From Methylotenera sp. (GTDB lineage Bacteria; Pseudomonadota; Gammaproteobacteria; Burkholderiales; Methylophilaceae), in NCBI RefSeq assembly GCF_013141425.1, contig NZ_JABFRA010000071.1, positions 1 through 46,312 of the forward strand: a DNA stretch of 46,312 bases, given 5' to 3'. The notes below the pieces were generated by a model. That model did not search any database and was not told the origin of the DNA. It saw only the letters and a list, made by a program, of their open reading frames with translations. This document shows, piece after piece, positions 23,767 through 45,559 of the stretch. A program made the position numbers and the translations under genes. Positions within the stretch are counted from its first letter, which is position 1, and each line of letters begins with the position of its first letter.

Positions 23767-26700
23767 ATGAAAAATCAGAATCAACAATTAGCACTCCTTT
23801 CTAACCAGTTAGCATACTTGCTCAAAGCCAATAATGGTGCGCTGATTAGCAGTGTGATTCTCGCTTCTATCTTGGCTTACATGATGCGTGATGCGGTTCC
23901 GCTGACCCTGATTTTCTCTTGGTGGGCTTTGCTGATTGTGGTAACAATTGGCCGAATGCTGGTTCTGTTTCGATACAAACGCCAGCCAGTGCATGATATT
24001 GCATCACTACAAGCCCGTTTGAAAGTTTTCCGTTTTGGTGTTTTGATTGGTGGTTTGCTCTGGGGCTTAGCAGGGTTGCTGATGTTCCCTGAAATCAATA
24101 GCGAGCATCGAATTTTTCTGATATTCACCTTGGTTGGCATCTCAAGTGGTGTGGTGATATCTTACGGCGTTGATCGATTTAGTGCGGCCCTCTTTGCTTT
24201 ACCCATCATTCTGCCCTTAATCATTCTGCTGTTAATGAGTGGCGATGCCTTCTCCTTAGCAATGGGCTTGGTTGGTATTGTCTATCTTGCTTATCTTTAT
24301 GTCAGTGTATCGCAATCGAATAAAAGTTTATTCGAGAACTTTAATCTGCAGTTTCAAGCGAATGAACGCGAAAAACTCATCGCATCGAATGCGGTAATGC
24401 ATCAAACCATACTCGATCGAGCAATGAATGGCTTCTGGTTAACCGATTTTCAAGGGAAGTTATTACAAGTTAACGAAGCTTACTGCCGGATGAGTGGTTA
24501 TAGCCAGCAAGAGTTACTTGAACTGCACGTGCATGATTTAGATGCGAACGAATCCTCTGAAGTAAATGTTAGGCATAAGGATGACATTCTAAGTCAGGGT
24601 GAAGGTCGCTTTGAAACCGTGCATAAACGCAAAGATGGCAGTATGTTTGAAGTAGAAGTAAGCGCACAGTTTAGTGCTGCCGATGGTGGGCAGTTTGTGG
24701 TTTTTATACAAGATATTACTGAGCGTAAAAAACTGCAAACGGTGCAGGAGGATGAGCAACTTAGACTTAAGAAAATTGCGAGTCGCTTAAGTGGTGTTGT
24801 GTATGAATTTAGGCTACGCCCTGATGGAAGTGCTTGCTTTCCATACGCGAGTGAGGCTATCAAGCAAATATATCGAGTAAGCCCTGAAGAAGTACGCGAA
24901 GATGCTTCTAAAGTATTCGATATACTTCATCCTGACGATTACGACAAAGTCGCGAAGTCAATTCAAGAATCAGCAAAAAATCTAAGCCCATGGAGCCTAG
25001 AGTATCGCGTGAAATTTGCTGATGAAAGCGTGCATTGGCTACATGGAAATGCATTGCCAGAACAAGAGTCAAGCGGCGCAATACTTTGGCATGGTTATAT
25101 TACGGATATTACCGAGCGCAAGCAGATTGAACAGGACTTAGTTGATAGTGAATATCGCTGGAAGTTCGCGATTGAAGGCTCTGGAGACGGTGTATGGGAT
25201 TGGAATATTAAGACTGATCAGGTTAAGTTTTCCAAACGCTGGAAAGAAATGTTGGGATATGCTGAAAATGATGATTTAGAAACCGGTAAGGCTTGGGTAA
25301 ATCTGATACATCCCGATGATCAGACACGGGTAGCCGAGACTCTTCAATCTTACTTGGACGGCAAATCTCCAAGTTACGTGGTTGAATTTCGCATGCAGTG
25401 TAAGGATCAAAGTTATAAGTGGATTCTTGCCCGTGGATTGGTGGTGAGTCAGAGCGAAGATGGTAAGCCGTCACGCATGCTCGGTACACATACTGATATT
25501 ACCCAACGTAAACAATCGGAAATTGAACTTAGCATCGCCGCGACTGCTTTTGAATCGCAAGAAAGCATTATGATTTGCGATGCAAATAAGGTAATGGTAC
25601 GTGTGAATGATGCCTTTATTAAAACTACGGGTTATAGCGCTCAGGAAGCGATTGGTAAAACTCCCTCAATATTGAGTTCTGGCCGTCACGATGGCGCATT
25701 TTATAAAGCGATGTGGGAGATTATTAATAGCACAGGAAAATGGAGCGGCGAAGTTTGGAATAAGCGTAAGAATGGTGAAATTTATCCAGAACAACTTACT
25801 ATTAGTACAGTGAAAGATGCCAATGGAGAAGTGGCATATTATCTAGGCTCTGTGGTTGATATTACTGAGCGCGAGAAAACAGAACAAGAGTTAATTGAAA
25901 GTGAGTATCGCTGGAAGTTTGCGATTGAGGGGGCTGGTGACGGGGTGTGGGATGTTAATGTGCAGACCAATGAAGCTAAGTATTCTAAACGTTGGGCACA
26001 AATGCTGGGTTATGAGGAAGACGATATTCTACCAAGCCGAGAAGAGTGGATAAGTCGACTCCACCCCGAAGACAAAGACCGAGTGCTGAATGCTGGGCAA
26101 GATTATCTGGATGGGAAAGCCAATAGTTATGTTGTCGAATATCGCCTGAAGTGCAAAGACGAAAGTTATAAGTGGATGCTGAGTCGCGGTATGGTGGTTA
26201 GCCATAGCGAAGACGGAAAAGCACTGCGTATGATTGGTACGCAAGAGGACATTACCGAGCGCAAACTCGCCGAAGAAAAATTAAAACGCATGCAAGTTGA
26301 ACTAATGGAATCGCATGAACGTTATGTAGACTTGTATGAATTTGCGCCGATTGGCTATTTGTCAGTCAATCAGCATGGCATGATTGCTGAAGTGAATTGG
26401 AAGGTGACTGCGCTACTTGGCTTGCCACGCAAACAGATTAATCAGCATCGCATGGAGCAATTTATCGCTGAAGATGATAAGGGCCGTTGGCGCCGTCAGT
26501 TTGCCATTATGAAAGAACTGCAAGGTGGCGAGGAATTGAGCTTAGATCTGAATATGATGAACGATGACGGCACTACGTTTAATGCCAGCCTGCATTGTCT
26601 GCGAATGGATGACGATGAAGATCAGCCCATTCTACGCATCACCATTGAAGATGTAACTCAGCTTAGACAAGCGGAACTTGCCTCAAAAATACGAGAAGGT

Positions 26701-29243: not shown

Positions 29244-30101
29244 TTAAGGCTTAAGCGTTTTAGGTGCTTCAGCTTGTGTGGCGGGGCTTTGAGGTGTTAT
29301 TTCCAATCCAAAGCCTGTTTGATTTTGCGCTTCAGTCTGACCTTCGTACAGAATCATTATCGACACGCGACGGTTTTTGGCGCGTCCTTCTACGCTGACG
29401 TTCTCGGCAAGCGGTTGCGTTGAGCCAAAACCAAGCGCACTTAATCTTGCCTCAGCAATACCTGCATCGCTTAACATTCTCACTACGCTACTAGCGCGTA
29501 CCGCAGAGAGTTCCCAGTTTGAGAAAAAAGTCTCGTTGTGAATGGCGATATTATCGGTATGCCCTTCTACTTGTATCAAGCGTTCATTGTCTTTAATCAA
29601 TGTGGCTACTTCATTCAGCACGCCAGAGGCTGCTGACGCTAAATCAGCCGAACCTGGGCTAAATAACAGACTGTCGTTGATGTCGATACGAATGCCGCGA
29701 TTATTTTGCATCACGCGTACTTTATTCTCGTTAATCAATGGTGCGAGTTTGTTTGAGATATCAACCGCCATGCGTGTCATGGCTTCACGCTCGCGGCGCA
29801 TTTTCTCGTTGTAAAGGTGCGTTAGCGGTAAGGGTTTAACAACGGAGTAGGGTTGCCCTTTGAGTTTGTTGTTCGCACCTGAAATGGGCTTACTGTTGAT
29901 TTTGATTGGGCTTGAAATGCTGCCACCAGTAAACGCGTTGCCCATGGAAGACATTAGCTCATTGTATTTACCCTGATTGACCGAGGAAATGGAATACATC
30001 ACCACAAAAAATGCAAAGAGCAGGGTGATGAAATCGGCGTAAGAAACCAGCCAGCGGTCTGTGCTTTCTTCGTCATCGTCAAGGGGCGGTCTTCTAATCA
30101 T
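29244..30101 (-). CDS. motD: Flagellar motor stator protein MotD (MotB-like)
   Basis: A 285-residue stator subunit with one membrane helix bearing the proton-binding aspartate in SYADFITLLFAFF (Asp23), a plug-like segment, and a C-terminal OmpA-like peptidoglycan-binding domain (IQVEGHTDNIAIHN...NWELSAVRASSVVRML, then NRRVSIMIL). It differs from MotB at 40959 and pairs with the MotC gene just upstream in transcription order (24 bp gap). The name follows the Pseudomonas MotCD pattern. It converges with the GGDEF/EAL gene, with only 17 bp between the stops and no visible terminator. Confidence 0.92.
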   Translation of the reverse strand: MIRRPPLDDDEESTDRWLVSYADFITLLFAFFVVMYSISSVNQGKYNELMSSMGNAFTGGSISSPIKINSKPISGANNKLKGQPYSVVKPLPLTHLYNEKMRREREAMTRMAVDISNKLAPLINENKVRVMQNNRGIRIDINDSLLFSPGSADLASAASGVLNEVATLIKDNERLIQVEGHTDNIAIHNETFFSNWELSAVRASSVVRMLSDAGIAEARLSALGFGSTQPLAENVSVEGRAKNRRVSIMILYEGQTEAQNQTGFGLEITPQSPATQAEAPKTLKP

Positions 30102-30125
30102 ACGAGTTCTAAAATGGAAATTTGA

Positions 30126-30866
30126 TTAGCGAAGGTAAGCCAACAGACGTTCTTCAACGATTCTGGGATGATCGCCACTGGCAATCGAGACCCAGGCATT
30201 TAATAGCATTTCACGACGCATCATTTCATGTTGTATTAATGCTTTAAGTTTATTGGAAATAGGCAAGAACACTAAATTAGCTAAACCCACGCCATAGATG
30301 GTGGCAACAAACGCCACGGCAATGCCGCTACCCAGTTTGCTTGGGTCAGAAAGGTTTTCCATCACATGAATCAAACCGAGTACCGCACCTAAAATGCCAA
30401 CGGTAGGCGCATAGCCGCCAGCGGCATTCCATATTTTTGCAGCATTGCGTTGTTGAATTTCGTAAAAATGCATATCAATCGCCATGACTTGGCGTAACTT
30501 GTCTGGCGGTGTGCCGTCAATCATCAGCCTTAAGCCTTTTTGGATGAAAGGTTCAGTCTCTTTTTTCATGTACGGCTCTAACATGAAAATACCTTCTTTG
30601 CGGGCAAAGTGGCTCCATTGGTTAATGCGTTTGGCGAGTTCCTGCCTGTCATCGATAGGTGGAGAAAATACTTGGCGCACAAAAAGCAGCCCAGCAATAA
30701 AGTTTTTGGTATTGGTTTGCACTAATACCGCACCAAAGGTGCCGCACATCACAATTAAAAAGGCCGCAGGCTGAATCAGCGAGCCAATTTGCCCGCCTTC
30801 CACTGCTTGGCCGACTAATATGCCGATTAAGGCAAGGGCTAAGCCACCTAAGCTACTCCAGTCCAT
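30126..30866 (-). CDS. motC: Flagellar motor stator protein MotC (MotA-like)
   Basis: A 246-residue stator protein with four membrane helices, near 4-20, 28-45, 150-170 and 180-200. The TM3/TM4 region has the family pattern GGYAPTVGILGAVLGLIHVMENL and IAVAFVATIYGVGLANLVFLPISNKLK. The cytoplasmic loop carries charged residues (AKRINQWSHFARKEG) that contact FliG in known stators. It overlaps fliA by 19 bp and is followed by motD. It represents a second stator distinct from MotA at 40057. Confidence 0.93.
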   Translation of the reverse strand: MDWSSLGGLALALIGILVGQAVEGGQIGSLIQPAAFLIVMCGTFGAVLVQTNTKNFIAGLLFVRQVFSPPIDDRQELAKRINQWSHFARKEGIFMLEPYMKKETEPFIQKGLRLMIDGTPPDKLRQVMAIDMHFYEIQQRNAAKIWNAAGGYAPTVGILGAVLGLIHVMENLSDPSKLGSGIAVAFVATIYGVGLANLVFLPISNKLKALIQHEMMRREMLLNAWVSIASGDHPRIVEERLLAYLR

Positions 30867-31585
30867 GATCTCTCTTTTAAATTCGCGCGTAATCTTGCCA
30901 CAGCCTGGCTATGTAATTGGCATACACGTGATTCAGAAACATTCATCACCGCACCAATTTCTTTTAAATTTAGTTCCTGCTCGTAATAAAGCCCCATCAG
31001 TATTTTTTCACGTTCAGGCAGGGAGGTAATGGCATCGACTAGCGCTTCACGGAAGTCACCATCGAGTAGCACTTTAATGGGATCGCCACTGTCGCTATCG
31101 GTATTAAAACGGTCAAGAAAGTGTTCACCATTTTCAGATTCATGAAAATCTTCATAATAAATGAGCTGATGGCCGCCGCTGTCACCCAACATTTCGTAAT
31201 AATCATCGAGTGATAATTGTAATTTTTTTGCCACTTCGCTTTCTGTTGGCGGTTTACCGAGTTGTTGTTCAAGCTGGCTGATGGCACTTTCTACGTCGCG
31301 CATGTTCTTACGCACACTGCGTGGAAGCCAATCAGCACTGCGCAATTCGTCCAACATCGCACCGCGAATTCTTTGCACCGCATAGGTTTCAAACTGTGCA
31401 CCGTGGGTGTCTTCATAGCGATTAATCGCGTCTAGCAAACCCATCATGCCAGCTTGCACCAAATCATCCAGTTCTACACTAGGTGGCAGCTTGGCTTTAA
31501 GCTGATAAGCGAGTTTTTTTACCAATACGGCGTGTTTGTTCAACAGTTCGTCTTTTTGGTCTTTTTTTCCATAAACGGTATACAT
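30848..31585 (-). CDS. fliA: RNA polymerase sigma factor FliA (sigma-28)
   Basis: A 245-residue flagellar sigma factor with region 2 (ELDDLVQAGMMGLLDAINRYEDTHGAQFETYAVQRIRGAMLDELR), region 3 (SVRKNMRDVESAISQLEQQLGKPPTESEVA) and region 4 with a helix-turn-helix (LPEREKILMGLYYEQELNLKEIGAVMNVSESRVCQLHSQAVARLR). It recognises promoters of the TAAAGTTT-N11-GCCGATAA kind, several of which lie in this window. It is inhibited by FlgM (22603). It is co-transcribed with flhBAFG upstream and motCD downstream. Confidence 0.97.
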   Translation of the reverse strand: MYTVYGKKDQKDELLNKHAVLVKKLAYQLKAKLPPSVELDDLVQAGMMGLLDAINRYEDTHGAQFETYAVQRIRGAMLDELRSADWLPRSVRKNMRDVESAISQLEQQLGKPPTESEVAKKLQLSLDDYYEMLGDSGGHQLIYYEDFHESENGEHFLDRFNTDSDSGDPIKVLLDGDFREALVDAITSLPEREKILMGLYYEQELNLKEIGAVMNVSESRVCQLHSQAVARLRANLKERSWTGVA

Positions 31586-33910: not shown

Positions 33911-35991
33911 GCTGAACCTCCAATAAGACTAGTGACACGTATGGTTTTTGAATCTGGTAATTCTTCGTGAGAAAGCACACGAAGATGTGGTATGGCGCGG
34001 CGTAAGAATTTTGATAACGCTGCACGTAATGGGGCTGAAACCAATAATACGGGCGTCATACCCATTTGTTCTTGCTGTTTTGCTGCTGCTTCGGCTTGTT
34101 TAGAAAGTGTTTCTGCCATGCCAGGTTCAATCGCAGAGCCAGTTGGACTGTTGCCTTGCATGGCTTGAGTTAACAAGCGCTCCAAGTTGCTGTCTAAAGT
34201 CATCACCGTAACTTCGTTGCCAGTGGGGAATAATTGCTGCACGATAGCGCGGCCAAGCTGAACACGCACAACGGCAGTCAACTCGCTGGTATCTTGTGTT
34301 TGCGTTGCATATTCCGATAGGGTTTCAACAATCGTGCGCATATCCCGAATATGCACGCCTTCAGCTAATAAGTTTTGCAACACTTTTTGTATCACAGCAA
34401 GTGACAATAATTTAGGGGTTAAGTCTTCTACCAATTTAGGTGCATCTTTGCTGATATGGTCTAGCAGTTGTTGCACTTCTTGGCGACCCAATAATTCACC
34501 TGCATGCAGCGAGATGATGTGGTTTAGATGCGTTGCAATCACAGTACCTGCGTCTACTACGGTATAGCCCATGTTTTGAGCTTCATCGCGCACGCTGCTA
34601 TCAATCCACACCGCAGGCAAGCCAAATGCAGGGTCAGTCGTAGCAACACCAGCGAGTTGGCCGGATACCATGCCAGGGTCAATCGCCAAATATTGGCCAT
34701 AATTAGACTCGCCGCTGGCAATTTCCACGCCTTTTAGGGTAATGCGGTAGTTAGAAGGTTTAAGTTCCAAGTTGTCGCGAATATGTACTGTTGGTGCTAA
34801 GAAACCAACTTCTTGGGCAAATTTCTTACGTAAACCTTTAATGCGTTTAAGTAAATCGCCACCTTGCGCTTTATCTACTAATGGAATTAAGCGATAGCCA
34901 ACTTCAAGGCCAACCACATCCACAGGGGTAACGTCATCCCAGCTTGCTTCCTCAAGGTTAGAGATAACTTCCACTTTTTCCTCTACGATAGGCTCAGCTT
35001 CCGCCGATTTTTTCTGTTCAGCAATGATGTAAGCCATGCCAGCCAACAAGGCGGCGAGTAATAAGAATGCAAAGTGTGGCATACCAGGAATAGCGCCCAT
35101 GCCGCCGATGATGCCCGCAGTCACATAAACCACTTTTGAGTTAGAGAATAATTGTGTGACTAACTGACCTCCAATATCTTCATTATTCGCAACACGAGAA
35201 ACCACTACACCCGCGGCCACCGAGATAATGAGCGAAGGAATTTGTGCAACCAAACCATCACCAATTGCTAACATGGTGTAGTTTTTAACGGCATCGGCAA
35301 AGGCGAGATCATGTTGCACGATACCCACCACTAAACCACCAACGATATTGATGATAATCACCATAATGCCGGCAATCGCATCACCACGTACATATTTACT
35401 TGCACCGTCCATTGCGCCGTAGAATTCTGATTCCTGACCCACTTCTGCACGGCGACGGCGAGCTTCATCTTCGCCAATTAAACCAGCGTTTAAGTCTGCG
35501 TCAATCGCCATTTGTTTACCTGGCATCGCGTCTAAGGTAAAGCGTGCGCCAACTTCAGCGATACGGCCTGCACCTTTGGTTACTACGGTAAAGTTGATGA
35601 TTGTCAGAATCACAAATACCACGATACCCACAGTGTAGTTGCCGCCAATCAAGAAGTGGCCAAAAGCTTCAATCACTTTACCTGCAGCATCAGGTCCATT
35701 GTGGCCTTCTGCCAATACTACTCGGGTAGACGCCACATTTAGCGATAAGCGCAACATGGTTGTCATCAGTAACACGGTTGGAAAGGCAATAAAATCAAGC
35801 GCTTTTCTAGTTTGCAAACCAATAAGCAAGACCATGATTGAAATGGCGATATTGAAGCTGAATAACACATCCAGAACAATGGCTGGCAATGGCAAAATCA
35901 TCATTGCTAACAGCAATATAATGATTAGCGGCGCCGCTACATTGCGGCTACCTATTGTTTTCATCCAGCTTGGTAGATTAAGCGAGTTCAT
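33907..35991 (-). CDS. flhA: Flagellar type III export gate protein FlhA
   Basis: A 694-residue export gate protein. The N-terminal half has about eight membrane helices and the FHIPEP signature region (GARFTLDAMPGKQMAIDADLNAGLI, about 150-175). The cytoplasmic C-terminal half (about 350-694) forms the nonameric ring that receives chaperone-substrate complexes. The start shares one base with the flhB stop and the end overlaps flhF by 4 bp. It is full-length and shows no odd features. Confidence 0.97.
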   Translation of the reverse strand: MNSLNLPSWMKTIGSRNVAAPLIIILLLAMMILPLPAIVLDVLFSFNIAISIMVLLIGLQTRKALDFIAFPTVLLMTTMLRLSLNVASTRVVLAEGHNGPDAAGKVIEAFGHFLIGGNYTVGIVVFVILTIINFTVVTKGAGRIAEVGARFTLDAMPGKQMAIDADLNAGLIGEDEARRRRAEVGQESEFYGAMDGASKYVRGDAIAGIMVIIINIVGGLVVGIVQHDLAFADAVKNYTMLAIGDGLVAQIPSLIISVAAGVVVSRVANNEDIGGQLVTQLFSNSKVVYVTAGIIGGMGAIPGMPHFAFLLLAALLAGMAYIIAEQKKSAEAEPIVEEKVEVISNLEEASWDDVTPVDVVGLEVGYRLIPLVDKAQGGDLLKRIKGLRKKFAQEVGFLAPTVHIRDNLELKPSNYRITLKGVEIASGESNYGQYLAIDPGMVSGQLAGVATTDPAFGLPAVWIDSSVRDEAQNMGYTVVDAGTVIATHLNHIISLHAGELLGRQEVQQLLDHISKDAPKLVEDLTPKLLSLAVIQKVLQNLLAEGVHIRDMRTIVETLSEYATQTQDTSELTAVVRVQLGRAIVQQLFPTGNEVTVMTLDSNLERLLTQAMQGNSPTGSAIEPGMAETLSKQAEAAAKQQEQMGMTPVLLVSAPLRAALSKFLRRAIPHLRVLSHEELPDSKTIRVTSLIGGSA

Positions 35992-37166
35992 CAGGCGGGT
36001 ACTCCAGCATCTAGATTATTTGCCGCTGGTAATAAACTGTGCGGATCTAATTCATCTGGCACAGGTACAGCTTTCGGCACTTCTGGTTGAAAGCCGCCAG
36101 CTTTTTTGAAAATGCGCATTTGAAATACATAAGCTAAAACTTCAGCGACAGCAGAATAAAGGGCTTCAGGGATTTCGCTACCAAGTTCAGTGTGGGCATA
36201 CAGTGCACGCGCTAATTTAGGTGATTCCATAATAAGCACTTGATGTTCACCAGCAATTTCACGAATCTTCAAAGCAACAGCATCTGCACCCTTAGCAACC
36301 ACTACTGGTGCGCGCATGCCTTCGTCCTGATATTTAATGGCGACGGCATAGTGGGTTGGGTTGGTAATCACTACATCGGCATTTGGAATCTCAGCCATCA
36401 TTCTGCGTCTAGCCATTTCGCGTTGTTGCTGACGAATCTTGGCTTTGATTTCAGGATTACCTTCAGACTCTTTCGATTCTTGACGCACTTCTTCTTTGGT
36501 CATTTTTAGTTTTTGCGCGTATTGATAAAGTTGGTAGGGCACGTCAATGGCAGCAATCACTACTAAAGTGCTGACAATGGTTAAAAATCCCATCAGCATC
36601 AAATCACTGACTTGTGCAATGCCAGATTTCAGCGGCAATGAAGAAAGCGCCAGAATAGGCTCCATGTCATGAGATATAACAACGTAAGCCACAATTCCCA
36701 CCAGCATGACTTTAGCGATAGATTTAATTAGCTCTACGGCGGCACTTTTTGAAACAATATTACCCAAGCCTTTTAATGGATTCAGACGGCCAAATTGTGG
36801 TAAAAACGCTTTACCACTGAAAACCCAACCGCCAATTATGATAGGCGATGCAATTGCCACAACCACTAGTACTAAGGCTAGTGGAGCGAATGCCAGTAAT
36901 AAGTCATAGATAGAGTGGCTGATTCTCATTAGTAACACGATCGGGTCAAACGCCGCTTGGCGGTCAAAATGCAAGCCAGAACTCATGGTGGTCATTAGCG
37001 CTTGATTAAGATGGTCGCCCATCATTAAGATCGTCAAGCCAGTGGTGAAAAGCACAGTCACAGTGGCCAACTCGCGTGAGCGTGGCACATCACCTTCTTC
37101 GCGCGCTTTTTCAATGCGCTTGGAGGAAGCCTGTTCTGTTTTTTCTAAATCGCTGTCTTCAGCCAT
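35991..37166 (-). CDS. flhB: Flagellar type III export switch protein FlhB
   Basis: A 391-residue export protein that switches substrate from hook to filament proteins. After a charged start (MAEDSDLEKTEQASSKRIEKAREEG) come four membrane helices and a cytoplasmic domain with the autocleavage site NPTH in VVITNPTHYAVAIKY. The ATG at 37166 was chosen because it gives the conserved MAEDS start and has GGGAA 5-6 bases upstream; an in-frame TTG at 37178 is less likely. It is the first gene of the flhB-A-F-G-fliA-motCD operon. Confidence 0.96.
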   Translation of the reverse strand: MAEDSDLEKTEQASSKRIEKAREEGDVPRSRELATVTVLFTTGLTILMMGDHLNQALMTTMSSGLHFDRQAAFDPIVLLMRISHSIYDLLLAFAPLALVLVVVAIASPIIIGGWVFSGKAFLPQFGRLNPLKGLGNIVSKSAAVELIKSIAKVMLVGIVAYVVISHDMEPILALSSLPLKSGIAQVSDLMLMGFLTIVSTLVVIAAIDVPYQLYQYAQKLKMTKEEVRQESKESEGNPEIKAKIRQQQREMARRRMMAEIPNADVVITNPTHYAVAIKYQDEGMRAPVVVAKGADAVALKIREIAGEHQVLIMESPKLARALYAHTELGSEIPEALYSAVAEVLAYVFQMRIFKKAGGFQPEVPKAVPVPDELDPHSLLPAANNLDAGVPA

Positions 37167-37446
37167 GACGATTCCCAATGTTTAGTTCAAATAGTTAATT
37201 CAATTGTTAATTAATGCAGATTAATTCGCGACTTCTTTTATTTACTGCATAGGATGAATTATGCGTTGCGATAGTGCGATTGTATCTTTGGAATAAAAGG
37301 GTGAAAGCGGCCCATTCTTTAAGTCGATGTGACTTTTTGACTCTAAAAAGCAAGCCAAAATTAGCATATTTATAATTATTTTTAATAATTAATTTATTTA
37401 AAGTCAATTACTTAAAAAATAAATGAAAATATTTTCAAATAAACCC

Positions 37447-37473
37447 TAAAGTTTTTTAAAGTGTGGCCGATAA
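37447..37473 (+). promoter_or_regulatory. Perfect-consensus sigma-28 promoter upstream of flhDC
   Basis: TAAAGTTT, exactly 11 bases, GCCGATAA: all 16 consensus positions match. It reads toward flhD, with the expected start point roughly 405 bp before the flhD ATG. It is the best sigma-28 site in the window, better than the one before flgM. Either flhDC is under FliA control, or an untranslated RNA starts here. Confidence 0.85.
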
Positions 37474-37719
37474 AAACTTATTCGATGAAACCGAAAATGT
37501 TTTTTGTAGAAAAATTAAAGTATTTGAAAAATAGGCCATAAACAGTTTGAGTTGTTTGTATTGAAGTCAGCGAAATGCTGGCGCAGCTAGAGCTTAACGG
37601 TAAATTACTGTAAAACTTTAGAAAATTTTAGGATATTTATTTAAAATGAAATTACTGATATAAAGAAATTTTAGCAGCACTTAAAGTTGTAAGTGTTTGA
37701 AATATATAGCTTCTCATAG

Positions 37720-37756
37720 CCCATGTAGGTGTTTGTAAGACAAACACCTACATGGG
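37720..37756. repeat. 17-bp perfect hairpin with an overlapping alternative stem
   Basis: CCCATGTAGGTGTTTGT (37720-37736) and its exact reverse complement (37740-37756) are separated by only three bases (AAG). Part of the element, GTAAGACAA (37735-37743), can instead pair with TTGTCTTAC (37766-37774), so two mutually exclusive folds exist. No U-run follows on either strand, so a simple terminator is unlikely. It lies about 130 bp before the flhD start. Confidence 0.85.
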
Positions 37757-37885
37757 TCTGTCCGCTTGTCTTACTAAAAATACCGACAAACCCTAATTGT
37801 TAACTGATGTTAAGAAGTTCAAAGTACAACCCATACGCGCAACACATTATTTACAACCGAAGTAAAAATGAATGGGGAAATAAAA

Positions 37886-38206
37886 ATGAACGAATTTGAA
37901 ATGATGTCAGAAATTAAAGATGCCAATTTGAACTACTTAATGTTGGCTCAACAATTAATCCGCTCAGATAAAGCCACTGCAATTTTCCGTTTGGGTATTA
38001 GCAAAGATATCGCAGATTTATTGGAAGGTTTAAGTAACTTGCAGTTATTAAAACTCAGCAGCACAAATATGATGCTAGCACGTTTCCGTTTTGATGACAG
38101 TGCAATTTTGGGAATGCTAACCAATTACACCAAAGATCGTGCACAAGCCCACTTGCATACTGCCGTGTTAATGGCAGGCCAAAATGCCGAAGCATTGGCC
38201 CACTAA
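37886..38206 (+). CDS. flhD: Flagellar master regulator subunit FlhD
   Basis: A 106-residue protein closely following FlhD: IKDANLNYLMLAQQLIRSDKATAIFRLGISKDIADLL, then LKLSSTNMMLARFRFDD. It forms the FlhD4C2 complex that activates early flagellar promoters with sigma-70. The ATG at 37886 was chosen because GGGGA lies 7 bases upstream and the product then starts like other FlhD proteins; an ATG 18 bases earlier (37868) has no ribosome binding site. It is followed by flhC after 37 bp. Confidence 0.95.
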   Translation: MNEFEMMSEIKDANLNYLMLAQQLIRSDKATAIFRLGISKDIADLLEGLSNLQLLKLSSTNMMLARFRFDDSAILGMLTNYTKDRAQAHLHTAVLMAGQNAEALAH

Positions 38207-38243: not shown

Positions 38244-38801
38244 ATGGAAAAGAAAAGCGTAGTAAATGAATCAGAACAAATTCAATTGGCAATCAAAATG
38301 ATTAAATTAGGTGCAAGATTGCAATTGCTTGAAGCGCAAACAACATTATCACGTGAACGTTTGATTAAATTGTACAAAGAGTTAAAAGGCGTATCGCCAC
38401 CAAAAGGTATGTTGCCATTCTCAACCGATTGGTTCTTAACCTGGCAGCCAAATATTCATTCATCTATTTTCTACAATATATACAAATTCATGGTGGACTA
38501 TACCGATGAAAAAGGCATTCATGCCATCATTAAAGCCTACAGTTTGTACTTACAACAAGTTGAGCAAGAAGGCGAAGAAGAGCCCGTATTATCCATGACA
38601 CGTGCTTGGACATTAGTGCGCTTTGTTGAAAGTAAAATGTTAAAACTACAAAACTGCAATTGCTGTGGTGGTAGCTTTATTGTCAACAGCTATGACTTGA
38701 ATCATCAATATGTTTGTAACTTATGCCACGTGCCTTCACGTGCAGGCAAAACCAAAAAAGCCAAAGAATTGACTTATAAAGTAGTGGCGATGACGGCCTA
38801 A
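38244..38801 (+). CDS. flhC: Flagellar master regulator subunit FlhC
   Basis: A 185-residue DNA-binding partner of FlhD. The N-terminal part (IQLAIKMIKLGARLQLLEAQTTLSRERLIKLYKELKG) and the C-terminal zinc site with four cysteines (CNCCGG and CNLCH, about residues 138-161) match FlhC. AAGGAGA lies upstream of the ATG. It is co-transcribed with flhD and probably with the methyltransferase gene 48 bp downstream. Confidence 0.96.
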   Translation: MEKKSVVNESEQIQLAIKMIKLGARLQLLEAQTTLSRERLIKLYKELKGVSPPKGMLPFSTDWFLTWQPNIHSSIFYNIYKFMVDYTDEKGIHAIIKAYSLYLQQVEQEGEEEPVLSMTRAWTLVRFVESKMLKLQNCNCCGGSFIVNSYDLNHQYVCNLCHVPSRAGKTKKAKELTYKVVAMTA

Positions 38802-38849: not shown

Positions 38850-39788
38850 ATGATGCAAGAAACCCTGAATAAATTGAGTTTAAACCAGACAAGGCAACAA
38901 GCGCAGTCGCTTCATTTAATTCAGTCTGAAAAGTTGGCAGTCAGTAAGCCATTCGATAAGCAGGGCATTGATAGGCAGGCAATCGAAGCAATTACAGCAA
39001 AAATACGAAAAAAAATTCGTATAGTACCCGCCGCAAAAGCTGTTTTGATACAAGGCGGGGCATTGATGACTGTGTTAGCAAGCACCCAAATGATGGGTTG
39101 GTTTGCAGCCAATTATATGGCAATTACCTTAAGCTTTTCAATTTTTAGTTTAGTGTTGATGCAAGCGTTTTTTGCTGCAACCTTGTCTAAATTCGCAGGC
39201 ATGGCAAGTTGGTGGCGTTGGATACACCTAGCTTTTCCCCTCGCTGCATGGGCTTTATTGCAATGGCATGTGCCAAGTGAATTGTATTTAATAGGCTTCA
39301 TTGTCAGCTTAAGTCTATTCTGGACGACGTTCCGCACACAAGTTCCCTTTTTTCCATCACGTCCAGTTGTCTGGCAGCAAGTAGCTAAAATTATTCCGCA
39401 AACACAAGTGGTACGGTTAGTTGACATTGGCAGTGGGCTGGGCGATATGTCGATGTACATCGCCAAGGCTAGGCCAGATAGCCAGATTGAAGGCATCGAG
39501 ATTGCACCATTACCGTGGATAATCAGTATTGTCCGAGCCAAATTCCGCCGTTCGAAAGCTGTTTTTAAATTGGGCGATTATAATGCCCTGCAGTTTGCAA
39601 ACTACGATGTAATTTTTGCCTATCTTTCCCCAGTCGCCATGCAGAATCTGTGGGAAAAGGCCAGTCAAGAAATGCTGCCAGGCAGCTTGCTGATCAGCCT
39701 TGAATTTGAAATACCAGGTATTCCCCCCACCATGCGTATTGCGGGAAATGAAAATTCACCTGCAATTTATGTGTGGAAAATCGCCTAA
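38850..39788 (+). CDS. Membrane-anchored class I SAM-dependent methyltransferase
   Basis: A 312-residue protein. A basic N-terminal tail (1-60) is followed by about four hydrophobic segments (62-82, 86-110, 124-140, 144-162), and then a class I methyltransferase domain: motif I LVDIGSGLGD (190-199), an acidic residue after strand 2 (IEGIEIAP, about 214-217), and YDVIFAYLSP (252-261) as the strand-4 region. This layout (membrane helices, a pre-core, then VD(I/L)GSG and FAYLSP-like elements) recalls the FAM173/ATPSCKMT lysine methyltransferases and their bacterial relatives, but that is a recollection of pattern. The substrate is unknown. Position after flhC suggests co-regulation with motility. 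No strong ribosome binding site precedes the start (ATG at 38850 or 38853). Confidence 0.75.
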   Translation: MMQETLNKLSLNQTRQQAQSLHLIQSEKLAVSKPFDKQGIDRQAIEAITAKIRKKIRIVPAAKAVLIQGGALMTVLASTQMMGWFAANYMAITLSFSIFSLVLMQAFFAATLSKFAGMASWWRWIHLAFPLAAWALLQWHVPSELYLIGFIVSLSLFWTTFRTQVPFFPSRPVVWQQVAKIIPQTQVVRLVDIGSGLGDMSMYIAKARPDSQIEGIEIAPLPWIISIVRAKFRRSKAVFKLGDYNALQFANYDVIFAYLSPVAMQNLWEKASQEMLPGSLLISLEFEIPGIPPTMRIAGNENSPAIYVWKIA

Positions 39789-40056: not shown

Positions 40057-40917
40057 ATGTTTGTCATTATTGGTTACGTTGTGATCTGCGGCACAATTTT
40101 TGGCGGCTATGCCATGGCAGGCGGCCATTTAGGCGGCTTGTGGCAACCGTTGGAAGTGCTAATGATTTTTGGTGGTGCTTTAGGTTCATTTATTGTAGGT
40201 AATGACAATAAAGCACTTAAAGCAACAGCCAAAACATTGCCTAGCATATTTAAAGGCTCCAAATTTACCAAAGCACTTTACTTGGATTTACTGGCCTTGC
40301 TATTCGAGATTCTTTCCAAAATTCGCAAAGACGGCATGATGTCGATTGAAAACGATGTGGAGAATCCAGAAGCCAGTCCGCTGTTCAGTAAATATCCAAA
40401 GTTACTGCACGATCATCACCTGACTGAGTTTATTACCGATTATTTACGCTTAATGGGTTCAGGCAACATGGATGCTTTTCAAATTGAAACTTTAATGGAA
40501 AGTGAAATCGAAACGCACCACATGGAAGGCCATGTGCCAGCGCATTGTATTGCTAAGTTGGGCGATGCTTTACCTGCCTTTGGTATCGTGGCTGCGGTGA
40601 TGGGCGTAGTACATACCATGGAAAGTTTACATTTGCCACCTAACGAATTGGGCATTTTGATTGGTCATGCGCTGGTGGGTACCTTCCTGGGGATTTTGCT
40701 GGCTTATGGGTTTGTCGGTCCGCTTTCTGGCTTGTTAGAACAAAAGCTAGAAGAGAGCACCAAAATGTATAACACGGTAAAAGTCACCTTAATTTCCAGC
40801 CTCAATGGATATGCGCCAGCAATAGCGGTGGAATTTGGCCGCAAGATTCTTTATTCAACCGAGCGTCCAGGCTTTGCCGAGCTTGAAACGCACGTTAAAC
40901 AAACCAAGAACAAATAG
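40057..40917 (+). CDS. motA: Flagellar motor stator protein MotA
   Basis: A 286-residue protein with four membrane helices (about 3-22, 33-50, 168-190, 200-222). It has the conserved TM3/TM4 text AHCIAKLGDALPAFGIVAAVMGVVHTMES and GILIGHALVGTFLGILLAYGFVGPLSGLLEQ, including the functional prolines. The cytoplasmic loop carries the charged residues that contact FliG. CTGGAG lies upstream of the ATG. It is the classic long MotA form, clearly different from the 246-residue MotC. motB follows after 41 bp. Confidence 0.96.
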   Translation: MFVIIGYVVICGTIFGGYAMAGGHLGGLWQPLEVLMIFGGALGSFIVGNDNKALKATAKTLPSIFKGSKFTKALYLDLLALLFEILSKIRKDGMMSIENDVENPEASPLFSKYPKLLHDHHLTEFITDYLRLMGSGNMDAFQIETLMESEIETHHMEGHVPAHCIAKLGDALPAFGIVAAVMGVVHTMESLHLPPNELGILIGHALVGTFLGILLAYGFVGPLSGLLEQKLEESTKMYNTVKVTLISSLNGYAPAIAVEFGRKILYSTERPGFAELETHVKQTKNK

Positions 40918-40958
40918 CAAATTGTTACGCAACGCAATGACTGAATACGGAGCATGTA

Positions 40959-41894
40959 ATGGCTGAAGAACGCGTAAGACCGATTATCGTAAAGAAGATT
41001 AAAAAAGGCGGTGGTGGCCACCACGGCGGGGCTTGGAAGATTGCCTACGCCGACTTTGTGACCGCTATGATGGCCTTCTTCTTGCTGATGTGGTTGTTAG
41101 GCTCAACTTCAAAAGCACAAAAAGAAGGTATTTCGGATTACTTTAAAACACCATTAAAAGTGGCCATGATGGGCGGTACTTCGGTGGGTGCCAGTGATAC
41201 CTTGATTAAAGGTGGTGGTGGTAAAGATTTTACTAAAAAGTCAGGCCAAGTAAAAAAAGTAGACGGCCCTGATGGTAAGAAAACCGCGATTGATGCTGAA
41301 ACCGCCAAAAAAGCTTTAGAGAAAGAAGAAAAAGTTAAGTTAGAAGAGCTGAAAAATAAAATCGAGAAGGCGATTGAAGATAGTCCAAATTTGAGTAAGT
41401 TTAAAAACCAATTATTGCTGGATATTACCTCTGAAGGTTTACGCGTGCAGATTGTCGATGAACAAAATCGTGCCATGTTTAACTCTTCTAAAGCCGAGTT
41501 ACAGCCTTATGCCAAGCAGATTTTGCAGGAACTTGGCCAGATGTTCAATGGTGTGACCAATAAAATCAGCTTGTCTGGTCATACCGACGCAACGCCATAC
41601 CCTAATGGTGAAAAATCCTACAGCAATTGGGAGCTTTCTTCAGACCGGGCGAATGCCTCTCGGCGAGAACTGGTGGCAGGCGGTATGGATGAAACCAAAT
41701 TACTGCGTGTAGTTGGCCTGTCGTCAGCTAGCTTGTTTAATAAAGAGAACCCGTTTGATGCAACCAATCGCCGCATCAGCATCATTATCATGAATAAGCA
41801 AGCCGAAGAAAATGCCTTAAAAGATGGTGCGTCTATTGATGTTCCAGCCGATTCTGCGGCTTCGGATGTAAGTAAGGCCATGCTTACGCCCTAA
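40959..41894 (+). CDS. motB: Flagellar motor stator protein MotB
   Basis: A 311-residue protein. The N-terminus (RPIIVKKIKKGGGGHHGGAWKIAYADFVTAMMAFFLLMWLL) contains the proton-accepting Asp32. A plug-like segment and a Lys/Glu coiled linker follow, then the OmpA/MotB peptidoglycan-binding domain (ISLSGHTDATPY...NWELSSDRANASRREL, NRRISIIIM). GGAG lies upstream of the ATG. The stop lies inside a hairpin (CCTAAACA 41890-41897 with TGTTTAGG 41907-41914) that may reduce read-through, though the T-run is displaced. Confidence 0.96.
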   Translation: MAEERVRPIIVKKIKKGGGGHHGGAWKIAYADFVTAMMAFFLLMWLLGSTSKAQKEGISDYFKTPLKVAMMGGTSVGASDTLIKGGGGKDFTKKSGQVKKVDGPDGKKTAIDAETAKKALEKEEKVKLEELKNKIEKAIEDSPNLSKFKNQLLLDITSEGLRVQIVDEQNRAMFNSSKAELQPYAKQILQELGQMFNGVTNKISLSGHTDATPYPNGEKSYSNWELSSDRANASRRELVAGGMDETKLLRVVGLSSASLFNKENPFDATNRRISIIIMNKQAEENALKDGASIDVPADSAASDVSKAMLTP

Positions 41895-42014
41895 ACAAGC
41901 GCTACCTGTTTAGGCCCAACTAGGCTTTTGTAAATTTAAGCAATAAAAGTAAAAAATAGAATTGATTAGTTTAACTGGTCGTATTCGCTAAATTGAAATG
42001 CAGCACTTTGGAAC

Positions 42015-42569
42015 ATGATTATGAACATGAAAACATTACCAACAACCGAATTAAGAAGCTTGCTCGCTGCGGTATCAGACCACGGCAAACAACATTTGGT
42101 GGAAGTAGAAGCCGATTTACTGCAAACCACCTTTTTGCTGAGCGAGGCAATCGAGAAGTTAGGTGCAAGCTTTATGGCGGTTCACGAAGCCGTTACCGAG
42201 CAACAGCAAGTGCTGAATGCCTTGTTAGAAGCGCACAAGTTTGATGTGGCCGAGACCAAAAAGCTGGAAGAGTTTAAGCAAAAGATTGGTCAAGAAGTAA
42301 ATGCGGCGGTGACTGGCTTGCAGTTTCAAGACCTTACTAGCCAATTGCTCAACCGCACCATTCGGCGGGTAAATGGCTTAAAAGACTTGCTGCACGAGTT
42401 GGGTAACCACAGCAATGATATTGATCCAGACCACGAGCATGAAGAAATTGCCAAGTTTTTAGACGAAATGAGTCATAGCTTGCATGAAGGAAGCCGCACC
42501 TTGTCGGGCGGCTTAAGACGTTCCGTTGACCAGCAAAATATGACAACAGGCGACATTGACCTTTTTTAA
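42015..42569 (+). CDS. CheZ-like chemotaxis protein (putative CheY-P phosphatase)
   Basis: A 184-residue helical protein. Residues 20-120 form a long helical hairpin. It contains LQFQDLTSQLLNRTIRRV (103-119), matching the CheZ active-site helix QDFQDLTGQVIKR: the D-x-x-x-Q pair (Asp106 and Gln110) corresponds to E. coli CheZ Asp143 and Gln147. The C-terminus ends TGDIDLF after a linker, reminiscent of the CheY-binding tail of CheZ. The gene is next to cheY. The rest of the sequence is quite unlike E. coli CheZ, so I call it CheZ-like. Start choice among three nearby ATGs (42015, 42021, 42027) is uncertain. Confidence 0.72.
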   Translation: MIMNMKTLPTTELRSLLAAVSDHGKQHLVEVEADLLQTTFLLSEAIEKLGASFMAVHEAVTEQQQVLNALLEAHKFDVAETKKLEEFKQKIGQEVNAAVTGLQFQDLTSQLLNRTIRRVNGLKDLLHELGNHSNDIDPDHEHEEIAKFLDEMSHSLHEGSRTLSGGLRRSVDQQNMTTGDIDLF

Positions 42570-42602
42570 TATCGATTTTTGAAACTATTTACCAGTAATG
42601 GC

Positions 42603-42629
42603 TAAAAATAAAGCGATCGCAACCGTTAA
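42603..42629 (+). promoter_or_regulatory. Sigma-28-like promoter for cheYAW
   Basis: TAAAAATA, 11 bases, ACCGTTAA. TAAA at the -35, a 15-base distance to the -10 and CCGTTAA fit the broader betaproteobacterial sigma-28 pattern. It lies about 85 bp upstream of cheY, in the 144-bp gap after the CheZ-like gene. Confidence 0.5.
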
Positions 42630-42713
42630 GTAGTAGGTGATGACCGGAAAAGTATTGAAGTTTTTGAATTATTAACTATTAGTAAGTTTAACAACGAAAA
42701 GTGAGTGTATGAA

Positions 42714-43082
42714 ATGGCAAAAACAATTCTAGCAGTAGATGACTCAGGTTCTCTTCGTCAGATGGTGGCATTTAGCTTAAAAGCCGCTGGTTACGATGTG
42801 GTGCAGGCGGTCGATGGTCAGGATGGCCTAGATAAAGCTAAGCAAAAGACTGTAGACCTCGTGTTGACAGACCAAAACATGCCAATCATGGATGGTTTGA
42901 CGCTCATTAAAAATCTGCGTGAATTAGGTTCGTATCAAAAAGTGCCAATTTTGATGCTCACAACAGAATCTAGCGATGAAATGAAAGCAAAAGGCAAAGC
43001 CGCTGGTGCCAATGGTTGGTTGGTGAAACCGTTTGATCCAAAACGCTTGATTGAAGTAGTTCAGAAAGTCATCGGGTCGTAA
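42714..43082 (+). CDS. cheY: Chemotaxis response regulator CheY
   Basis: A 122-residue single-domain receiver. Acidic pocket Asp9-Asp10 (AVDDSG), phospho-acceptor Asp53 (DLVLTDQNMPIMDG), the conserved Thr pair (LMLTTES, about 83-84) and Lys105 (LVKPF) are all present. The ATG at 42714 gives the MAKTILAVDDS start of related CheY proteins; a GTG nine bases earlier is possible. It is phosphorylated by CheA (next gene) and binds the motor switch. Confidence 0.95.
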   Translation: MAKTILAVDDSGSLRQMVAFSLKAAGYDVVQAVDGQDGLDKAKQKTVDLVLTDQNMPIMDGLTLIKNLRELGSYQKVPILMLTTESSDEMKAKGKAAGANGWLVKPFDPKRLIEVVQKVIGS

Positions 43083-43141
43083 AGATCACTCCTACAAAAT
43101 AATAGTTGTCGGAAGAGTAAATAGATAAATGGAGTACAGCA

Positions 43142-45559
43142 ATGACAATTGATATGAGTCAGTTTTACGAGGTCTTTTTTGATGAGGCAGAGGAGTTGCT
43201 CGCTGAAGCGGAGCGATTGTTGCTAGACATCGACATAGAAAATCCTGACGTTGAAGATTTAAACGCCATCTTTCGCGCCGCGCACTCCATCAAAGGTGGC
43301 GCTGCGACGTTTGGCTTTATGGACATGACCGAAATTACCCATGTGCTGGAAAATCTGCTGGATAAAATTCGTAAAAATGAAATGGCGCTGACCGCAGAAC
43401 ATGTGGACGCCTTTTTGGCTGCTAAAGATGTGCTGAAAATGGAAGTTGATGGTCATCGATTAGCTACCGAAGTGGATCAAGAGCAAGTGGCCGATGTGAA
43501 AATGATGCTGAAGTCACTCTCTGAAGCAGGTGGTTTAGTAGCTAAGCCAGCACCCGCTGCGTCAGTGGTTGAAGCAAAACCTGCCGAACCTGAAATTGCA
43601 AAACCAGTTATTGAAACGCCAGTCGTTGCACCGCAAGCTGCCGATGGCTTAACGCATTTTCATATATTCTTGCCTGAAATATCCGATAAAGATGCAAGTA
43701 ATCTGCAAGAAGAATTGAGCTTATTAGGCGCAGTAGAAGCGACCAAGAATGCGCATGGGCGCCATGTGTTTGTCTTAGCCACTGACTCAACGCAAGACGA
43801 CATTATTTCTATCTGCTCGTTTGTTCTTGACCCGAATGATTTAGTCATTTCTTTGGCACCACATGCCACAGCAACACCAGTGCCTGCACCTTTAGCATCT
43901 GCCTCTGCTGCGCCAAGTGCACAGGCGGCACCAGTTGAAGATCCTGGCTATGGTTTATTTGACGATAATGATGTGGTTGAAACGAAGGTTAGTTCTTCCC
44001 AGACAAACACTATAGAAAAAGTAAAAATTGAAGAAGAGGTCGGTTACGGTCTATTTGCCGTGGATGGTAAAGAAAACGAAGAAGAAGGTTACGGTTTCTT
44101 TGCACCCTTTAAGCCGCATGCAGACGCTGCAGTTGCCACTTTGATTGGTGACGATACCGTAGCCACCGAAGAAAACTCAGGCAAAGCAGAAGTTGAAAAG
44201 CAAGCGGAAGTCAGCAAAGCTGAAAATACTGCTGCAACAAATACCGCAACCGCCAGCGCCGCTGAACAAGCCGACCGCAGAAACCAAGGCCGCCGTGAAT
44301 CAGACAAAGCGCCTGCCAGTGCAGAAACTTCATCGATTCGTGTTGGCATTGAAAAAGTCGACCAACTGATTAACCTCGTTGGCGAATTGGTGATTACGCA
44401 AGCCATGATTGAGCAGCGCATTAGCAATTTAGACCCCGTACAACATGAGCCACTTATTAACAGTGTTGGACAGCTCACACGTAACACGCGCGATTTGCAA
44501 GAATCTGTCATGTCGATTCGTATGATGCCGATGGACTTTGTATTTTCACGCTTCCCGCGCATGGTGCGCGATTTAGCTGCCAAATTAGGCAAAAAAGTAG
44601 AGTTCGTTACTGTGGGTGCAACTACGGAGTTAGACAAAGGTTTAATCGAGCGCATTGTTGACCCCTTAACCCATTTGGTGCGTAACAGTGTAGACCACGG
44701 CATTGAATTGCCCGCAGGCCGTAAAGCGGCGGGTAAGAACGAAACTGGCACGCTTACACTTTCTGCCGCACACAAAGGCGGCAGTATTGTAATTGAAGTG
44801 ACGGATGATGGCGCAGGGCTGAACCGCGATAAATTACTCGCTAAAGCCAAAGCCAACGGCTTAACCGTTAGCGAAAACATGAGTGACAGCGATGTGTTTA
44901 ACTTAATCTTTGCACCAGGCTTTTCAACTGCCGAAGTCGTTACCGATGTTTCAGGTCGCGGTGTGGGCATGGACGTGGTGAAACGTAATATTGCCGCCAT
45001 GAATGGCGTGGTGGAGATTCGTTCCGCACTCGGTTACGGCACCACAATATCCATTTCATTACCACTCACCTTAGCGATTCTGGATGGTATGTCCGTTTCT
45101 CTGGGCAACAGCATCTACGTGATTCCGCTCAACCTCATTGTAGAAACCTTGCAACCGCGTGCTGAAGACATTAAAACCGTGACAGGTGAAGGCCGCATGG
45201 TGCATGTGCGTGGCGAGTATTTGCCAATTATCGCGCTGCACAGCTTGTTTAATCACCGCACTGACATTACCGACCCAACCGAAGGCGTGCTGGTGTTGCT
45301 GGAATCCGACGGTAAAAAATCCGCTTTGTTTGTTGATCGCTTAGTCGGCCAGCAACAAGTGGTGATTAAGAGCCTAGAAACCAATTACAGAAAAGTGCCA
45401 GGCGTATCGGGTGCCACCATCATGGGTGATGGCGGAGTGGCACTTATTCTGGACGTTTCAGCCATTATTCAAATGGGACAAACCACTAATTATCTGACTG
45501 GCGCTTTGCCATTCGCACACTATGCAAATCAAGCAATTCCTAAGGAGCTTACAAAATGA
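43142..45559 (+). CDS. cheA: Chemotaxis histidine kinase CheA
   Basis: An 805-residue kinase. P1 Hpt domain (1-105) has phospho-accepting His48 in AAHSIKGGAATFGF. A CheY-binding-like P2 region (about 170-245) follows. The linker (250-390) contains three GYG(L/F)F motifs near 269, 300 and 316 and acidic and Ala-rich stretches. P3 dimerisation (about 395-460) has VDQLINLVGELVITQAMIEQR. The ATPase has the N box HLVRNSVDHGIE (about 510), DDGAGL, and FAPGFSTAEVVTDVSGRGVGMDVV. A CheW-like P5 domain ends the protein. GGAG lies upstream of the ATG. It overlaps cheW by 4 bp (ATGA). Confidence 0.96.
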   Translation: MTIDMSQFYEVFFDEAEELLAEAERLLLDIDIENPDVEDLNAIFRAAHSIKGGAATFGFMDMTEITHVLENLLDKIRKNEMALTAEHVDAFLAAKDVLKMEVDGHRLATEVDQEQVADVKMMLKSLSEAGGLVAKPAPAASVVEAKPAEPEIAKPVIETPVVAPQAADGLTHFHIFLPEISDKDASNLQEELSLLGAVEATKNAHGRHVFVLATDSTQDDIISICSFVLDPNDLVISLAPHATATPVPAPLASASAAPSAQAAPVEDPGYGLFDDNDVVETKVSSSQTNTIEKVKIEEEVGYGLFAVDGKENEEEGYGFFAPFKPHADAAVATLIGDDTVATEENSGKAEVEKQAEVSKAENTAATNTATASAAEQADRRNQGRRESDKAPASAETSSIRVGIEKVDQLINLVGELVITQAMIEQRISNLDPVQHEPLINSVGQLTRNTRDLQESVMSIRMMPMDFVFSRFPRMVRDLAAKLGKKVEFVTVGATTELDKGLIERIVDPLTHLVRNSVDHGIELPAGRKAAGKNETGTLTLSAAHKGGSIVIEVTDDGAGLNRDKLLAKAKANGLTVSENMSDSDVFNLIFAPGFSTAEVVTDVSGRGVGMDVVKRNIAAMNGVVEIRSALGYGTTISISLPLTLAILDGMSVSLGNSIYVIPLNLIVETLQPRAEDIKTVTGEGRMVHVRGEYLPIIALHSLFNHRTDITDPTEGVLVLLESDGKKSALFVDRLVGQQQVVIKSLETNYRKVPGVSGATIMGDGGVALILDVSAIIQMGQTTNYLTGALPFAHYANQAIPKELTK

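Follow-up and report, generated by a model that had tools for sequence, protein, structure and literature searches.

A predicted sigma-28 (FliA) promoter upstream of flhDC in Methylotenera and its possible role in feedback onto the flagellar master operon

In Methylotenera sp., an assignment that agrees with the relatives of its FlhC, the flagellar master operon flhDC is preceded by a full-consensus sigma-28 (FliA) promoter sequence that points toward flhD. It lies in the 46,312-nucleotide stretch of DNA analysed here (contig NZ_JABFRA010000071.1, referred to as the window). The promoter itself is well supported by sequence comparison. Probably, the site is a functional FliA promoter through which a positive loop onto flhDC, gated by the flagellar assembly checkpoint, is closed; we infer its transcription, its dependence on FliA and its positive sign, i.e., that it raises FlhDC, from the sequence. 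The features of the region are listed in Table 1.

Table 1. Positions in the window of the predicted promoter and of the surrounding flagellar features.
Feature	Position	Strand	Remarks
fliA (sigma-28)	30848..31585	-	NF005413 and TIGR02479; sole FliA over cut-off in the genome
flhB	35991..37166	-	Leading gene of the divergent cluster flhB-flhA-flhF-flhG-fliA; TIGR00328 over cut-off
Predicted sigma-28 (FliA) promoter	37447..37473	+	16/16; TAAAGTTT 37447-37454, N11, GCCGATAA 37466-37473
Second, weaker sigma-28-like site	37594..37620	-	14/16; faces flhB-flhA-flhF-flhG-fliA; convergent with 37447-37473
Perfect 17-bp inverted repeat	37720..37756	.	Between promoter and flhD; block 37721-37756, mean information content (IC) 1.57
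flhD (106 aa)	37886..38206	+	NF002783 over cut-off, NCBIfam FlhD equivalog
flhC (185 aa)	38244..38801	+	NF009365 over cut-off
Conserved 312-aa ORF	38850..39788	+	Between flhC and motA; methyltransferase-domain match below cut-off
motA, motB	40057..41894	+	Downstream of flhDC and the 312-aa ORF

The pattern that was scored consists of the -35 box TAAAGTTT, an 11-bp spacer and the -10 box GCCGATAA, and thus has 16 scored positions. All of them are present in TAAAGTTTTTTAAAGTGTGGCCGATAA (37447-37473, plus strand), as the original prediction had stated, and this is the sole exact match in the window. With up to three mismatches, the window contains four matches, compared to 0.79 expected from shuffles. 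The genome of the organism (2.48 Mb) holds one exact match, which is this site, no match with one mismatch and nine with two. When up to three mismatches are allowed genome-wide, 30+44 matches are found vs. 34+31 for a reversed-pattern control; since these counts are close, lone weak matches mean nothing. Among the nine two-mismatch matches, one precedes flgM, two precede flagellin and one is the minus-strand site in the flhB-flhD intergenic region, while no tie to flagellar genes was found for the other five. The site had also been described as a better match than those before flgM, flgA, cheY and flgK. This is borne out, as the flgM site (22519; flgM is encoded in the window) reaches 14/16, like the flagellin sites, and the flgA site (21516) reaches 13/16, while a scan of 41801-43200 for cheY gives nothing at 12/16 or above and a scan of the whole window at 13/16 or above gives no site before flgK.

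The promoter ends 412 bases before the flhD start codon (ATG at 37886). The transcript is expected to start around 37480, which predicts a leader of approximately 406 nt and agrees with the distance of about 405 bp to flhD that had been proposed. No intrinsic terminator was detected in 37170-37890, hence none between promoter and flhD, and the site therefore faces flhDC over terminator-free DNA, as a positive feedback loop would need. A sigma-70 scan gives four matches vs. 3.9 expected and is thus uninformative, and the phage records contain nothing that matches the flhB-flhD intergenic region.

The conservation of the promoter was determined in an alignment of 26 flhB-flhD intergenic regions from Methylotenera and close Methylophilaceae. 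They comprise loci up to L061 for which over 500 bases, counting 30 of flhD, were available; L009 (runs of N), L053 (FlhD match away from the flhC locus) and the short L013, L014, L059 and L061 were left out, L061 carrying a 13/16 site, and L010 and L054 are without flhD. The mean information is 1.78 bits in the boxes, 0.93 in the spacer, 1.17 in the 50 bp upstream and 0.66 in the 50 bp downstream, with an intergenic mean of 0.86. Among 692 offsets, the gapped 16-mer formed by the two boxes ranks first in conservation, while the spacer drifts in sequence. The promoter scores 16 in 11 of the 26 regions, 15 in nine, 14 in three and 13 in three. Poor conservation relative to the surroundings would have spoken against the promoter, and the opposite was clearly found.

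The exact pattern occurs in 15 of 52 genomes of the genus, once in each, and the reversed pattern in none. In 11 of these 15 genomes it lies before flhDC (in G014 as judged from flhB, the contig ending after the site); in the remaining four it precedes two CheY-like genes, a flagellin gene and an unassigned ORF. Allowing one mismatch in ten genomes, which were picked among known carriers of a site of at least 13/16, gives 24 places: 11 before flhDC, six before flgM, two before flagellin, two before flgK and three elsewhere. As exact and near-exact matches thus lie mostly before flhDC, flgM, flagellin and flgK, the pattern is taken to mark real FliA promoters. Altogether, both boxes are present at the proper spacing and conserved at constant spacing, FliA and FlgM are encoded, and the pattern recurs at known FliA targets.

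The site is also found outside the genus. In a survey of the order, FlhC was matched in 128 of 349 genomes, from which 80 loci were taken (79 genomes, G639 giving two). They were chosen before the upstream DNA was seen, leaving out repeats of common families and weak FlhC matches; FlhD was located in all 80, and the 700 bp before it were scanned. A site of at least 13/16 occurs 24 times on the plus strand and three times on the minus strand, compared to zero for the reversed motif and a mean of 0.35 (maximum one) in 20 rounds of shuffling; at 14/16 or above, the counts are 18 on the plus strand and zero on the minus strand, for the reversed motif and in shuffles. Two of the three minus-strand matches (L141, L142) represent the convergent site of the organism's own family. 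Sites of at least 14/16 are present in GTDB families f1 (3/6 loci), f8 (2/5), f25 (3/4), f199 (7/8) and f207 (3/3), and in none of the other 16 sampled families. A chance origin of the site was considered and is ruled out by the shuffles, the strand bias and the first-rank conservation. As 56 of the 80 loci have no site of at least 13/16, and as the Burkholderiaceae-type and two Methylobacillus-type loci described below lack one, flhDC does not need such a site in general. Sampling at class level, where FlhC was matched in 20 of 370 genomes and in 13 of these weakly, was not used further.

A set of named loci, scanned over 800 bp with four short loci and L053 left out, gives a similar picture, although it overlaps with the order sample (L065 and L144 carry the same sites) and the two are not independent. 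Its group labels come from record titles and locus order, and some titles are vague, e.g., uncultured proteobacterium. Sites of at least 13/16 are found in 32 of 35 Methylophilaceae-type loci (33 with L009, whose 14/16 site, counted by eye, falls just past the scanned 800 bp owing to runs of N), in 18 of 18 Oxalobacteraceae-type loci, all reaching 14, and in six of 10 Nitrosomonadaceae-type loci, one of which reaches 14. The Methylobacillus-type loci L067 and L068 reach 12/16 at best, and none of the 13 Burkholderiaceae-type loci (in the wide sense) has a site of at least 13/16. Nine loci tallied apart (L022-L030) have one plus-strand and one minus-strand site, both at 14. While flhB is divergent from flhD in most Methylotenera loci with enough sequence and in one f207 locus, it was not matched at any of the 18 Oxalobacteraceae-type loci. 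Because the flhB neighbour differs between groups in this way, the site seems to go with flhDC rather than with flhB.

In every one of the 18 Oxalobacteraceae-type loci, between two and four sites scoring 12/16 or higher are directed toward flhD, in steps of 73-106 bp. In L070 and L092, a unit of 49-58 bp, which consists of an A/T tract and then ACCCTAAAGTT, is present in four copies at spacings of 78, 75 and 76 bp. By their sequence, these arrays look like the tandem duplication of one promoter. The arrays suggest that selection has tuned the gain of the loop. Two Methylovorus loci have three sites that are 167-189 bp apart. Separately, contig C67 of the organism's own genome has two sigma-28-like sites (L115, L116; both 14/16) before a flagellin gene; they are 86 bp apart, nearly the spacing seen in the flhDC arrays of Oxalobacteraceae-type loci.

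The inverted repeat that lies between the promoter and flhD is located approximately 250 bp downstream of the promoter. Its arms CCCATGTAGGTGTTTGT and ACAAACACCTACATGGG, followed by TTGTCTTAC (37720-37777), are strongly conserved before flhD, and its block has the highest mean IC among seven conserved blocks listed for the intergenic region. The repeat is probably a regulator site or a leader hairpin. Its half sites seem to resemble response-regulator boxes of the RcsB/BvgA/GacA type. Repeats resembling TGTAGGA...TCCTACA also occur ahead of flhD, in a comparable position, at loci of approximately ten further families. Just before flhD, in 37773-37834, are two more conserved blocks, ACTAAAAATACCGACAAACCC and AAGAAGTTCAAAGTACAACCCAT, which are possibly the proximal flhD promoter. 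Near flhB, the conserved block GCGATTGTATCTTTGGAATAAAAGGGTGAAAGCGG (37276-37310, mean IC 1.45) is perhaps an FlhDC-dependent flhB promoter region.

The second sigma-28-like site faces the flhB cluster, in which flhG is the label given to the MinD-like ORF between flhF and fliA. A minus-strand match of at least 13/16 is present in 16 of the 26 aligned intergenic regions, 85-158 bp past the start of the plus-strand site, and the match stays below 13/16 in the other 10. For comparison, the best secondary match on the same strand as the promoter reaches 13/16 in none of the 26, and the mean best scores are 12.4 for the minus strand, 10.2 for the same strand and 9.6 for shuffled sequence.

The system is comparable to the three-class FlhDC-FliA-FlgM cascade of E. 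coli and Salmonella, with which it shares the genes, the sigma-28 consensus and the gating of FliA by FlgM. In the textbook temporal order of the enteric cascade, flhDC comes first and sigma-28 last. Kutsukake reportedly studied the autogenous control of flhD in Salmonella in 1997. Unlike the 16/16 site of Methylotenera, the best FliA-like match in the 700 bp upstream of flhD in E. coli K-12 is 10/16; because an IS1 element begins approximately 305 bp upstream of flhD, only the near part of this scanned region is native. In the consulted part of one E. coli study, flhDC is presented as the only class-1 unit, and its FliA ChIP-seq table gives a motA site inside flhC, then otsA, and none upstream of flhDC (PMC4183435). 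Feedback of FliA onto FlhDC activity does occur in Salmonella, where FliZ represses ydiV and FliA activity raises FlhD4C2 activity as part of a bistable motility switch (PMC4173784, in part). That FliA-FliZ-YdiV loop is indirect, through FliZ, whereas the Methylotenera site would act directly at flhDC. FliZ was not found in the organism's own genome nor in any of 61 relatives (mostly Methylotenera, f199 and f207 not among them), with a positive E. coli control. The arrangement also resembles the hybrid class-2/class-3 operons such as Salmonella fliAZ, in which a sigma-28 promoter is added to an operon with another promoter; the hybrid cases named in the consulted part of PMC5809477 are fliA, fliZ, flgM, fliD and fliT, and not the master operon.

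These elements can be assembled into a mechanism. In Salmonella, completion of the hook is followed by export of FlgM, which frees FliA (PMC5809477, in part). Likewise, once assembly of the hook-basal body is finished and FlgM, the anti-sigma factor, has been exported, FliA-RNA polymerase would become free, start at approximately 37480 and transcribe through the leader into flhDC, perhaps continuing into the 312-aa ORF and motAB. The extra FlhDC would increase class-2 transcription, that of the divergent fliA-containing cluster included, and the weaker convergent site may feed this cluster, and hence sigma-28, directly. Such a positive loop would open only past the assembly checkpoint and would lock in the motile state. 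A point against this explanation is that, with the promoter so far upstream of the inverted repeat, the long transcript might be poorly translated or might interfere with a nearer promoter.

Other explanations were weighed against the positive loop. The best of these, still rather unlikely, is that the site is the class-3 promoter of the downstream motAB and che genes, moved ahead of a flhDC-ORF-motAB operon, with feedback as a side effect. E. coli motAB-cheAW has its FliA promoter within flhC (PMC4183435, in part). In the window, no sigma-28-like site of at least 12/16 is present between flhC and motA, and none of the 10 sampled loci combining the 312-aa ORF, motA and a 14/16 flhDC site has a site of at least 14/16 before motA. 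The promoter may therefore act for motAB as well, or even chiefly. Moreover, five sampled loci show the reverse arrangement, in which motA has a site of at least 13/16 and flhDC has none. However, the lack of a site before motA says little, given that 47 of the 64 loci having motA are without a 14/16 site before either flhDC or motA. In addition, two of the 10 loci (G583 and G736, both f199) do have a 13/16 motA site, and in f25 and f207 a motA site of at least 13/16 accompanies the flhDC site (15/16 in all four cases) at four of seven loci, with the motA site at 14/16 in three of the seven, from which it follows that the flhDC site is not merely that of motA. In total, flhDC and motA are each preceded by a site of at least 13/16 at six sampled loci (two in f199, three in f25, one in f207), three of them at 14/16. 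The absence of a motA site wherever flhDC has one, expected if the promoter served motAB only, is thus seen in the window but not in the sample, and a simple move of the promoter from motA to flhDC is weakened by the loci carrying both. Finally, motA in the window is preceded by 268 non-coding bases with a hairpin-like stretch (by eye), which suggests a start of its own.

The 312-aa ORF has a weak methyltransferase-domain match (E 1.5e-4, 22.8 bits vs. a cut-off of 27), and its homologues occupy the same place between flhC and motA in several families. The flagellar cluster contains two MotA/MotB-type stator pairs, one after fliA (29244-30866) and one after flhDC (40057-41894). Adjoining flgM-flgN, 23767-29226 encodes a protein of 1819 aa with many PAS domains as well as GAF, GGDEF and EAL domains.

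Slightly less likely than a service to motAB is that the FliA transcript dampens flhDC, either as a poorly translated RNA with a long leader that runs over the nearer promoter and regulator site, or by collision with the convergent FliA promoter, so that the feedback would be negative. The long leader and its hairpin could also render the transcript inert. The length of the predicted leader, its perfect 17-bp hairpin and the folding of 37480-37900, which beats 100 of 100 shuffles (z -2.99), are compatible with this, as are the two converging FliA-like sites and the inefficient translation of the class-3 fliA transcript in Salmonella (PMC4173784, in part). Yet the DNA right after the site is conserved below the intergenic average, the tandem arrangement at Oxalobacteraceae-type loci suggests selection for a higher output, and the convergent match falls below 13/16 in the 10 aligned regions that nevertheless keep the plus-strand site.

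That the product of the promoter is a small regulatory RNA of the 5′ region and not flhDC mRNA is improbable, although sigma-28-dependent small RNAs are known in E. coli (PMC10578931, in part) and a strong hairpin lies approximately 250 nt downstream. Such an RNA would call for a conserved transcript followed by an intrinsic terminator, and neither was found: 37170-37890 is without a terminator-like site, and the 50 bases after the promoter have an IC of 0.66 vs. the intergenic mean of 0.86. Rfam likewise gives no family at curated score, only three weak matches (E 0.19-0.39). From the two options that had been offered originally, a FliA promoter that closes a positive loop therefore stands as the best supported, while the untranslated 5′ RNA is disfavoured. 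The convergent site that faces the fliA operon, the tandem arrays of relatives and the possible role for motAB go beyond what had been offered originally. Lastly, it is very improbable that the pattern serves as an operator bound by another protein or arose by chance, despite its distance from flhD and its absence from most sampled loci, given the full consensus at a constant 11-bp spacing with an unconstrained spacer, the recurrence of the pattern at flgM, flagellin and flgK in this genome or in those of relatives, and a strand bias of 18 to 0 at 14/16.

Extending the positive FliA loop beyond Methylotenera, it is conceivable, as a tentative proposal, that in several betaproteobacterial families sigma-28, freed at hook completion, directly re-fires the master operon. 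Methylotenera would in addition re-fire its own sigma-28 operon head-to-head, resulting in a double checkpoint-gated loop without FliZ, and in Oxalobacteraceae the loop would be strengthened by tandem duplication, in arrays of up to four promoters that are often approximately 75 bp apart. This loop would be a new wiring of known parts, and searches of the open-licence literature gave no description of a FliA promoter ahead of flhDC in betaproteobacteria. If true, the flagellar cascade in these bacteria would be a loop and not a one-way hierarchy, and a finished flagellum may keep the programme on. Motility would then be predicted to be switch-like and heritable, in a manner that depends on hook completion, and caution is warranted in carrying the enteric class-1 logic over to betaproteobacteria.
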